Part shown: one piece after another, positions 17,810-20,029 of the stretch | Layout: each line of letters starts with the position of its first letter | How positions within the stretch are numbered: the stretch's first letter is position 1 | Source of the DNA: Spirochaetaceae bacterium | GTDB lineage: Bacteria > Spirochaetota > Spirochaetia > Treponematales > Breznakiellaceae | Length of the DNA stretch: 43,255 nt | Assembly: GCA_031257255.1 (NCBI GenBank) | Contig: JAIROZ010000021.1 | Coordinates: 1-43,255, forward strand | Direction: 5' to 3' | Translations under genes and position numbers: made by a program | Notes under the pieces: model-generated | Databases searched by the model: none | What the model was told of the DNA's origin: nothing | Seen by the model: the letters and a program-made list of their open reading frames with translations, nothing else

Positions 17810-17838
17810 GAGCGGTACCCTGCCGGGGATGCCGCAAT

Positions 17839-17911
<73 letters not shown>

Positions 17912-17923
17912 TATGAATTAGAA

Positions 17924-18059
17924 GGGCAGTAGGTTTCGAAGGGTTTTTGCCGCCGCGTCAGCGGAAAAGGCGGCAGGGATGCCGCCGAAAGGCAAAAACC
18001 CCGGCCTGTAGCGAAAAAACAGGACGTTTTTGAGCGGAAGGCGAAACCTACTGCCCCTG
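17924..18059. repeat. inverted and direct copies of the tRNA-Trp 3' end around nested palindromes
   Basis: The tRNA-Trp 3' end recurs as an inverted copy of 17 bases at 17924-17940 and a direct copy of 18 bases at 18042-18059. Between them are GGGTTTTTGCC (17941-17951) paired with GGCAAAAACCC (17991-18001), and inside that GGCGGC/GCCGCC (17969-17974, 17981-17986). The block fills the gap between tRNA-Trp and secE and has no open reading frame. Confidence 0.85.
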
Positions 18060-18075
18060 AGAATAGAGGTGTATT

Positions 18076-18271: not shown

Positions 18272-18829
18272 ATGTCAGCGGCATGGTATGTATTACAAGT
18301 TTACTCTAATAATGAACGCAAAGTCGAAAAATTACTCCGCCAAAAGATAAGTTCCGGGCAACTTACCAAAGAAGTGGTAATGGACATCAAACTGCCCATC
18401 GAAGAGATTACAGAAGTCAAAGACGGCAAAAAACGCTCGTTAAAAAAGGTATTTTTGCCCGGTTATGTGCTTTTGGAGATGGACTTGCCGGAAAAAGACT
18501 GGCAAAAAACTTGTTCGGAACTTATCAACACGGCGGGGGTCAGCGGCTTTGTTGCCACAAAACACAATGTGCGTCCCAGTCCGCTTTCCAACGATGAGGC
18601 ACGGGATATACTTCAGCGGGCGGGCGAAATTAAAGGTGAAAAACCCATACGCTCACGCCAAACCTTCGCCTCAGGCGAGCAAGTTAAAATCATCGATGGT
18701 CCGTTTGAATCGTTTACCGGCACCATCGAAGAAGTCAATACCGAAAAGAACCGCCTTAAAGTTATAGTCGTTATCTTTGGACGCAACACATCGGTAGAAG
18801 TCGACATCATTCAAGTCGAAAAAATCTAA
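18272..18829 (+). CDS. nusG: transcription termination/antitermination factor NusG
   Basis: NusG binds RNA polymerase and links it to Rho or to the ribosome. The 185-residue protein starts with the NGN domain (WYVLQVYSNNERKVEKLL) and has the family segment FLPGYVLLEMDL. A flexible linker leads to the C-terminal KOW domain (FASGEQVKIIDGPFESFTG, then VIVVIFGRNTSVEVD). AAGG lies before the ATG. The stop TAA is the first codon of palindromic element 4. In most bacteria rplK-rplA-rplJ-rplL follow nusG; here a convergent alr gene does. Confidence 0.97.
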   Translation: MSAAWYVLQVYSNNERKVEKLLRQKISSGQLTKEVVMDIKLPIEEITEVKDGKKRSLKKVFLPGYVLLEMDLPEKDWQKTCSELINTAGVSGFVATKHNVRPSPLSNDEARDILQRAGEIKGEKPIRSRQTFASGEQVKIIDGPFESFTGTIEEVNTEKNRLKVIVVIFGRNTSVEVDIIQVEKI

Positions 18830-18869
18830 GGAAGCGCCGATGGGTATCGCGTTTATCAGCGATGCCTAA
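18827..18869. repeat. palindromic element 4 between convergent nusG and alr
   Basis: TAAGGAAGCGCCGAT (18827-18841) and, inverted, ATCAGCGATGCCTAA (18855-18869) bound a 43-base element with the same termini as elements 1-3. Inside, GGTATCGC pairs with GCGATGCC. It supplies the stop codon of nusG (TAA, 18827-18829) and of alr (minus-strand TAG, 18866-18868), and could end transcription from both sides, although a T-tract is lacking. Confidence 0.7.
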
Positions 18870-20029
18870 TCTGCATACACACGCGGGACGCGCTTACTGA
18901 TACCGCAGGTAATTTCGTACGGAATAGTCCCGATGCGTTCCGCGATGTCCGCCGCGTTAAGAGCCGGTTTTGCGCCGCCAAATATGGTTACCTTGTCCCA
19001 GCGTTCTACTTCAGGATGCGCGCCTAAGTTCACCATACATTGATCCATACAGATACGCCCTGCCAACGGGTAGAGAACGCCGTTTATACATACCGAAAAA
19101 TTGCCGGACAGCAGGCGGGGCAGCCCGTCCGCATAGCCGAGCGGCAGAACACCTATAACTGTGTCCGCGTCCGCCGTCCATGTTCTGCCATAGGATACGC
19201 TCTCGCCTTTGCGGACTGTTTTTGTAAAGACAATCTGAGTTACCAGTTCCATAACAGGCTTAAATTTGAGCGCCGGCAGCGAGCCGGCATCCTGATACCC
19301 GTAAAGGATGATACCGGGGCGTACCATATCGAACCAACTTTTGGGGTGCGATACCGACCCTCCTGAATTTGCCGCGCTTAGTATGCCGGTCTGGATACCC
19401 CGCGCTTTAAGCGTTTCCGCAACGGCGCTAAAGCGTTCAATCTGAGTGTTCGTGTACGCGATGTTCTCCTCTTTTGAGGAGTCGGAAACGGCAAAATGAG
19501 TGATAATTCCGGCGATTTTTAGCGCATTAGTCTGCTCGATAAATCCGGCAAGCGCGGGCGCGTCCTCCGGGCGGCAGCCTACGCGCCCCATTCCGGTATC
19601 TATTTTGATGAACACCGGAAGTTTTTCGGTAACTTTCGGCGGAACCTCGCCATAAATCGCGCCTAATGCCGTCTGCTTGCCTGCTTCGGCAAAAAGCGCG
19701 GCGGCTTGTGTATCGCTTACAAGCGGCGTAAGGCTGTATGCCCAAACCGCTTCCATTTCCGCCGGGACGCACTGCGAAAGCAGCAGGATAGGTGCGCGTA
19801 TACCCGCATCGCGCAACTGTGCGCCTTCGTCCACCGTGGCAACTGCGAGGTGCCGCGCTCCCGCTTCCAGCGCCGCCTTTGCGGCAGGAATAGCCCCATG
19901 CCCGTAGGCATCCGCCTTTACCGGTACGCATATCGAAGGCTCCGCGCCGTTAGCGCGATGATGAGCCCTCAGCGTCTCAATGTTTTTCTTGAATACATCA
20001 AGATGAATAATTGCTTGTGTTGCTCTCAT
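18866..20029 (-). CDS. alr: alanine racemase
   Basis: This PLP enzyme interconverts L- and D-alanine, giving D-Ala for peptidoglycan. The 387-residue protein has the N-terminal barrel with the PLP lysine K38 in VPVKADAYGHGA. It also has IKIDTGMGRVG, the FDMVRPGIILYG segment, the second catalytic residue Y280 in ESVSYGRTW, and the C-terminal beta-domain pieces LPLGYADG and AGRICMDQCMVNLG. The start codon is ATG, with only a weak GGA upstream. It lies 155 bases downstream of the sirtuin gene; a short-repeat stretch fills the gap, so co-transcription is uncertain. Confidence 0.96.
   Translation of the reverse strand: MRATQAIIHLDVFKKNIETLRAHHRANGAEPSICVPVKADAYGHGAIPAAKAALEAGARHLAVATVDEGAQLRDAGIRAPILLLSQCVPAEMEAVWAYSLTPLVSDTQAAALFAEAGKQTALGAIYGEVPPKVTEKLPVFIKIDTGMGRVGCRPEDAPALAGFIEQTNALKIAGIITHFAVSDSSKEENIAYTNTQIERFSAVAETLKARGIQTGILSAANSGGSVSHPKSWFDMVRPGIILYGYQDAGSLPALKFKPVMELVTQIVFTKTVRKGESVSYGRTWTADADTVIGVLPLGYADGLPRLLSGNFSVCINGVLYPLAGRICMDQCMVNLGAHPEVERWDKVTIFGGAKPALNAADIAERIGTIPYEITCGISKRVPRVYAD

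Follow-up and report, generated by a model that had tools for sequence, protein, structure and literature searches.

The tRNA-Trp gene in the window (the whole 43,255-nucleotide stretch of DNA that was analysed, a single contig [G000:C119] of a 2.17 Mb assembly with 210 contigs and approximately 71% completeness) is followed by two further copies of its own 3' end, one inverted and one direct, with palindromic DNA between them. This locus raises the question of how a tRNA gene acquires such copies and what lies between them. The block is part of the gene order tRNA-Thr, rpmG (Pfam L33), tRNA-Trp, element, secE, nusG. In many bacteria, nusG is followed by rplK; at 18272-20029 of the window, what comes after nusG is not rplK but a long ORF on the opposite strand (18866-20029). 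The features of the block are as follows.

17838..17912, + strand: host tRNA-Trp(CCA), identified by both ARAGORN and Rfam (RF00005)
17892, 17894 and 17911, + strand: tRNA-Trp landmarks T54 (set by the T-loop motif), C56 and discriminator base 73, respectively
17894..17911, + strand: first copy of tRNA bases 56-73, within tRNA-Trp itself (repeat comparison)
17912..17923, + strand: trailer separating tRNA-Trp from the inverted arm (sequence)
17924..17940, + strand: inverted arm, the reverse complement of tRNA bases 54-70 (17/17; arms in the family track the host tRNA)
17941..18041, + strand: structured core (covariance model R1 match)
17941-17951 paired with 17991-18001, + strand: stem P2 of the core (consensus structure)
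17952..17964, + strand: inner hairpin; most relatives have CCGACCnnnnGGGAGG here, including tandem G.A mismatches (folding, alignment)
17969..17986, + strand: hairpin 1 with loop CAGGGATG, a CsrA-type GGA loop (folding, loop comparison)
18003..18042, + strand: hairpin 2 with its outer arm (hairpin 2 proper is 18015-18031, with CAGGACG in the loop)
18042..18059, + strand: direct copy of tRNA bases 56-73 (18/18)
18060..18075, + strand: flank running into secE; its homologue in genome G078 follows tRNA-Trp at the empty site

The block behind tRNA-Trp

The sequence CGAAACCTACTGCCCCTG at 17894-17911 is present again at 18042-18059 with all 18 bases identical. A 22-nt inverted repeat (17892-17913 and 17919-17940, 91% complementary) contains a perfect 17-mer at 17924-17940, and the inverted and direct copies also match each other over 15 nt. 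Both recurrences had been reported in an earlier note on this DNA, and their coordinates are exact. The nested palindromes that it described are also real: the 148-nt unit has a folding energy of -78.2 kcal/mol (z = -8.5) and forms a long stem enclosing two inner hairpins, with one further hairpin after the stem. The same note suggested that the inverted copy could pair with tRNA-Trp itself, and such a hairpin would be energetically possible according to the folding model.

Among the 41 distinct tRNAs of the window genome, only tRNA-Trp and tRNA-Ser(GGA) are followed within 700 nt by an inverted copy of at least 12 nt from their own 3' end. The inverted matches of the remaining tRNAs are single and 9-11 nt long (Ala-TGC 11, Gly-GCC 10, Lys-TTT 9). 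By arithmetic, the expectation of a chance 17-mer match in the searched space is below 1 in 100,000. Because only two of 41 tRNAs show such copies and the 17-mer expectation is this low, the inverted and direct copies are not due to chance.

When the block was searched against the window genome, a second copy appeared behind tRNA-Ser(GGA). It has the same core as the Trp copy, and its inverted and direct arms come from the 3' end of tRNA-Ser; it is followed by a second, core-deleted unit. When folded, the 148-base stretches at Trp and Ser pair almost identically from base 48 onwards. The architecture with both arms occurs at these two of the 41 tRNAs only. Directly behind tRNA-Val(TAC) is a core fragment, CGCCGCCGCGTCAGCGGAAAAGCCGCC, without arms (L003 1501-1541, G000:C20), which is probably a decayed copy. 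Downstream of tRNA-Val(CAC), the 3' part of the tRNA and its trailer are repeated directly over 19 nt, without core or inverted arm (L023, G000:C151). By eye, a different palindromic repeat of the type GCTGATnnnCATCGAGTTTATCAGC...GCCCTA also seems to recur behind several tRNAs of this genome (Lys(TTT), L036; Gln(TTG), L030; Met, L039; Ser(GCT), L054).

Distribution of the core

BLAST with the block gave matches in 66 of 195 family genomes. The covariance model R1 was built from an alignment of 28 copies, in which RNAalifold predicts 38 pairs, 31 of them with compensatory double changes. R1 matches the window at 17925-18055 (E-value: 6.1e-34; the window belongs to the R1 training set). With up to 17 candidates scored per genome, R1 matches were found in 127 of 190 family genomes and 46 of 56 genera; with eight candidates scored per genome, they were found in 79 of 392 phylum genomes. 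Six genomes for which 150 candidates were scored have 20, 18, 17, 18, 10 and 7 copies. Three of these six are closed (G140 with 20 copies, G009 with 10 and G011 with 7), and G146 has 18. Near-complete family genomes without an R1 match among up to 17 scored candidates include G138, G107 and G040.

Across named species genomes, a DNA pattern of the element was found on 34 contigs, of which 31 are labelled Treponema or Spirochaetaceae and one each Spirochaetota, Deltaproteobacteria and Betaproteobacteria. The genome of the "Deltaproteobacteria" contig, whose taxon is a MAG label, has 19 element matches. Five of its nine best matches are directly behind a same-strand tRNA (Ser-CGA, Glu-TTC, SeC, Leu-CAG and Asn-GTT); one more copy has, by eye, tmRNA arms, and another stands behind Val-CAC. 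The element family thus appears to span the phylum and, by MAG label, to extend beyond it. The DNA pattern also gave four viral contigs, none of which was confirmed by the covariance model. Plasmid and phage records contain no element match, and no Rfam 15 family reaches its gathering score over the element. According to the earlier note, the same block with the same sequence in distant relatives would have pointed to RNA processing. Distant relatives do have the core, but there it stands behind a variety of tRNAs and its arms vary, so its presence there does not decide the matter.

Arms copied from the host tRNA

R1 was run over 86 loci and gave 117 matches, representing 100 distinct copies. 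The folded core of approximately 100 bases is common to many genomes and tRNAs and is located just downstream of tRNA genes; the whole unit is approximately 150 nt. A tRNA or tmRNA gene on the same strand precedes 90 of the 100 copies, in 74 cases at a distance of 66 nt or less. In the other 16 the host is 139-675 nt away, and many of these are later units of arrays. Four of the ten copies without an upstream tRNA or tmRNA begin no more than 65 nt from the end of the analysed stretch, and one of the ten has a tRNA-Leu-like end upstream that was missed by ARAGORN. The hosts comprise 28 isoacceptors and tmRNA. At the tmRNA locus of G009 (L159 842-994) the arms are tmRNA-derived, and locus L221 of G570 has copies with tmRNA-like arms where ARAGORN found no tmRNA.

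The core is flanked on the left by an inverted T-arm copy, which covers bases 54 to at least 65, and on the right by a direct copy; the sequence of each arm is copied from the host tRNA at that site. The direct copy begins at C56 and covers bases 56-73, often extending into the trailer; it is identical to the host at 18/18 positions in 62 of 90 copies and at 16/18 or more in 70 of 90. The inverted arm starts from T54 and is mostly 11-13 nt long (up to 20). The direct copy matches its own host at a mean of 16.5/18 positions, compared with 9.0/18 for other isoacceptors, and the inverted arm matches at 11.3/12 compared with 8.4/12. Position by position, comparisons between hosts of the same isoacceptor that differ in sequence favour the own host in 505 of 522 cases for the direct copy and in 286 of 310 for the inverted arm (in both cases these are ordered pairs, which are not independent). 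At least 8 nt of the trailer are duplicated in 34 of 67 first units, compared with 51 of 4186 control pairings. At sites where the tRNA and the direct copy disagree, the inverted arm sides with the tRNA in 25 of 26 cases. Based on these host-specific matches and on the agreement of the inverted arm with the tRNA, both arms seem to have been copied from the tRNA independently. The earlier note was right that simple integration leaves the inverted copy unexplained. The element was also considered as a mimic of the tRNA top half for RNase Z; this idea is weak, as most inverted arms cover the T arm alone (11-13 nt) and leave the acceptor part unpaired.

Structure of the core

Across the 100 distinct copies, pairing holds in 93.9% of pair cells and double changes occur in all 38 pairs, with a covariation of 0.638 compared with at most 0.118 in slid controls. 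Nine of these 38 pairs are formed between the arms, where covariation comes through the tRNA; only the remaining 29 core pairs, all with double changes, therefore count as evidence of folding. G-T pairs make up 34 of 2630 pairs in the core (1.3%), compared with 200 of 2333 (8.6%) in tRNA stems of the same loci. Mismatches in the core comprise 34 G-T and 15 A-C; because of this excess of G-T, the tRNA-sense strand is probably the folding one. The scarcity of wobble pairs is unusual for an RNA under selection, and folded single-stranded DNA may be the alternative. The hairpin thus appears to be kept exact partly at the DNA level. In the Ser tRNA cluster of L183, from a Spirochaetota MAG, three copies share a near-identical extra insert of approximately 60 nt in hairpin 1, as if these inserts had been converted to one another.

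Insertion, inheritance and loss

In G078, a sister species in the same genus, tRNA-Trp has no element and the gap behind it ends in AGAGGTGTATTTTGAA, the flank that follows the direct copy in the window. G079 also has no element at Trp, and its only detected copy is at Ser-TGA. This comparison of the tRNA-Trp to secE gap, which the earlier note had proposed, thus provides one empty site with a matching flank and one further Trp gene lacking the element. The empty site of G078 fits insertion, although precise loss by recombination between the 18-nt copies could look much alike. The earlier note interpreted the block as the remnant of an attachment site. Insertion at the tRNA 3' end leaving a direct copy is retained from this interpretation; a remnant of an integrase island is not supported. 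The block is one of a large family of approximately 100-nt cores with host-copied arms.

A tree of 87 cores (104 columns) has low resolution, with 11 of 84 branches starred. On this tree the tRNA labels need 50 changes (66-72 in the first three shuffles) and the genome labels 57 (66-67 in the first three shuffles). A single clade is rejected for the Trp copies (p 0.006) and for the copies of G140 (p 0.003), which argues for repeated arrival; it is not rejected for the Gln-TTG copies (p 0.80). The copies thus reflect both descent along with the tRNA and more than one arrival. Mean core identity is 0.661 for the same tRNA in different genomes and 0.528 for different tRNAs of one genome, which rules out a greater likeness among the copies of one genome. 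Given this difference and the single clade allowed for the Gln-TTG copies, a large part of the distribution may reflect vertical descent. In that case, the arms and the tRNA must have changed together, which simple insertion followed by drift does not predict. G140 contains tandem arrays, shortened units, a nested element and an orphan remnant; the nested element (L150 842-1074) lies within hairpin 2 of another element, behind tRNA-Pro(TGG). No insertion in progress was caught among the copies compared.

Proposed model and alternatives

The block is best explained, with a confidence that only modestly favours this reading, as one member of a dispersed family of non-coding insertion elements; each would enter the T loop between T55 and C56, duplicate the tRNA end and gain an inverted copy of the T arm. 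The proposed model is as follows. The core would enter between T55 and C56, and the direct copy would be the resulting target duplication. The new strand would then switch onto the T arm of the tRNA itself and briefly copy backwards, forming the inverted arm. The switch would use the T-loop sequence common to tRNAs, a near-palindrome (TTCGAA or similar) that also borders the core in a donor copy. Host replication or repair could carry out this template switching, so that the element would need no enzyme of its own. Copies would later be inherited, expanded to tandem arrays, decayed and sometimes lost. No mobilising enzyme was identified in searches with the RVT_1 and Y1_Tnp profiles. As reverse transcriptase and Y1 transposase are missing from several copy-rich genomes, host-driven template switching is the likeliest inserter, although an unknown recombinase may act in its place. 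A Y1/REP transposase was rejected as the mover, since Y1_Tnp is absent from G011, G146, G154, G151, G015 and G185 and abundant in element-free genomes.

Alternatively, the element could be a maintained RNA, made from tRNA transcripts and either binding CsrA or regulating the pre-tRNA or operon, that is inherited vertically under selection and whose arms follow the tRNA through gene conversion or through required pairing with it. This is possible, if doubtful. An RNA function would account for the very strong structural covariation, the GGA loops of CsrB-like form (CANGGAUG in hairpin 1, CAGGANG in hairpin 2) and the 34 to 15 excess of G-T over A-C, which points to folding of the tRNA-sense strand. 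It also agrees with the single clade allowed for the Gln copies and with transcription into the element, as at most 14 of 74 first units are behind a terminator-like hairpin in a loose scan (two of these 14 resemble the element itself) and seven of 74 in a strict scan. However, a maintained RNA would not be expected to be absent from the near-complete genomes G138, G107 and G040 or from the same tRNA in a sister species, to vary from 0 to 20 copies, or to occur in truncated, nested and orphan forms. The strong depletion of wobble pairs also argues against it, and so does the preference of the inverted arm for the tRNA over the direct copy at 25 of 26 sites, where pairing between the two arms has not been repaired.

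The element could also be inserted by a protein. A non-autonomous integrative element moved by a tyrosine integrase would require a fixed attP, whereas one core family has the arms of 28 isoacceptors and tmRNA, and these match the host rather than any attP. The inverted arm, at a variable distance, has no known role in such sites, the core of approximately 100 nt is too small for a gene, and the absence of matches in plasmid and phage records also speaks against such an element. An integrase with a crossover in the T loop, the direct copy being its attachment-site block and perhaps the remnant of a larger island, is therefore improbable, even though the direct copy starts at C56, tandem arrays occur, and tRNA genes are described as frequent targets with known T-loop crossovers (PMC4383910). 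SINE-like retro-insertion, in which target-primed reverse transcription of the element RNA would start from a nick at the 55/56 junction and the end of the cDNA would fold back on the tRNA, would explain the fixed C56 start, the duplicated trailer, the variable length of the inverted arm and the host-derived arms. It is very improbable, as RVT_1 was not found in G140 (closed, 20 copies), G011 (closed, 7 copies), G146 (18 copies), G154, G169, G010 or G015, and is present in only 7 of 29 tested genomes, three of which are element-free. The fragmented and incomplete window assembly could suggest chance repeats or an assembly artefact, but the probability of this is negligible: the same architecture occurs in closed genomes and at 28 isoacceptors, with arms that follow their own host.

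Comparison with known systems

Islands integrated at tRNA or tmRNA genes (Islander type) resemble the element in their site at the tRNA or tmRNA 3' end, their direct 3' fragment (18/18 in 62 of 90 element copies) and their tandem arrays. They differ in that an island has an integrase gene inside and exceeds 2 kb, whereas the unit of approximately 150 nt is too short for a gene and its core is gene-free. An island also uses one attP block for one tRNA, whereas a single core family has 28 isoacceptor hosts plus tmRNA and an inverted host-derived arm. Islander discards candidates that are shorter than 2 kb or lack an integrase (PMC4383910), and such elements would therefore be missing from its listings. 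Fragments of tRNA 3' ends thus need not mean integrase islands, which is a warning for island finders and tRNA annotation.

REP/MITE-type repeats of bacteria are short, non-coding, palindromic and multi-copy, with fixed ends. The element shares all of these properties except the last, as its ends are copied from the target and are not a fixed terminal sequence for a transposase acting in trans. Group II introns and other retroelements depend on a reverse transcriptase in the genome, and RVT_1 is absent from the closed genomes G140 and G011. The tRNA-gene-targeted retrotransposons of Dictyostelium are eukaryotic and protein-coding and insert at a distance from the tRNA gene; the element likewise targets tRNA genes in general, but is bacterial, non-coding and adjacent to them. 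Mobile elements usually carry fixed ends with them and go no further than a direct duplication of the target. An element in which both ends are target copies, one of them inverted, points to a copying mechanism without a recognised match among known ones, of which the many copies provide a natural record. No description of such an element was found in the open-licence literature, and this large family of tRNA-tailored elements behind bacterial tRNA genes seems to be undescribed. Its novelty lies in the target-copied inverted arm and would lapse if a known recombinase makes such arms.

GGA loops and CsrA

The loop of hairpin 1 contains GGA in 99 of 100 copies (mostly CANGGATG) and that of hairpin 2 in 86 of 100 (mostly CAGGANG). 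The repeats of CsrB are given as CAGGA(U/A/C)G in hairpin loops (PMC7652899), and the element resembles CsrA-binding RNAs of the CsrB/RsmY type in having hairpins with CAGGANG or ANGGA loops. It differs from them in being tRNA-linked and multi-locus and in occurring in a genome with FliW (csrA adjoins fliW in the window genome); CsrA binding by the element is predicted only. RrA, RrB and RrF, from the rRNA operons of E. coli, are described as structured RNAs that interact with CsrA in vitro and are conserved in Enterobacteriales (PMC8144298). Like the element, they are structured RNAs read from a stable-RNA operon; unlike it, they follow rRNA, and the abstract mentions no host-derived arms for them.

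The window element is probably transcribed inside a longer transcript, since it lies between tRNA-Trp and secE and a consensus scan, which performs near chance level, found no terminator-like site there. The same scan gave a promoter-like site ahead of tRNA-Thr. Judging from loop shape alone, the element RNA may bind CsrA. A broader proposal is that the element is a self-spreading hairpin which rebuilds its ends from any tRNA or tmRNA gene it enters, spreads without an enzyme, is transcribed from tRNA promoters and, with its paired CsrA-binding loops, acts as a mobile CsrA sponge in bacteria with FliW; this is unlikely as a whole. Whether FliW and sRNAs jointly act on CsrA in any species is stated to remain to be determined (PMC7652899), and such joint action would become testable if the GGA loops bind CsrA. 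Within the window, GGA-loop hairpins with perfect stems of at least 7 are not enriched, so that hairpins of this type are no general feature of it. Comparing the presence of csrA with that of the element gave no contrast, as csrA is found in 166 of 190 family genomes, including element-free ones. On eight contigs (G045:C89, G146:C2, G067:C55, G190:C17, G103:C336, G072:C35, G191:C15 and G075:C82), csrA and an element are approximately 4-5 kb apart, a proximity that perhaps results merely from a tRNA near fliW-csrA.
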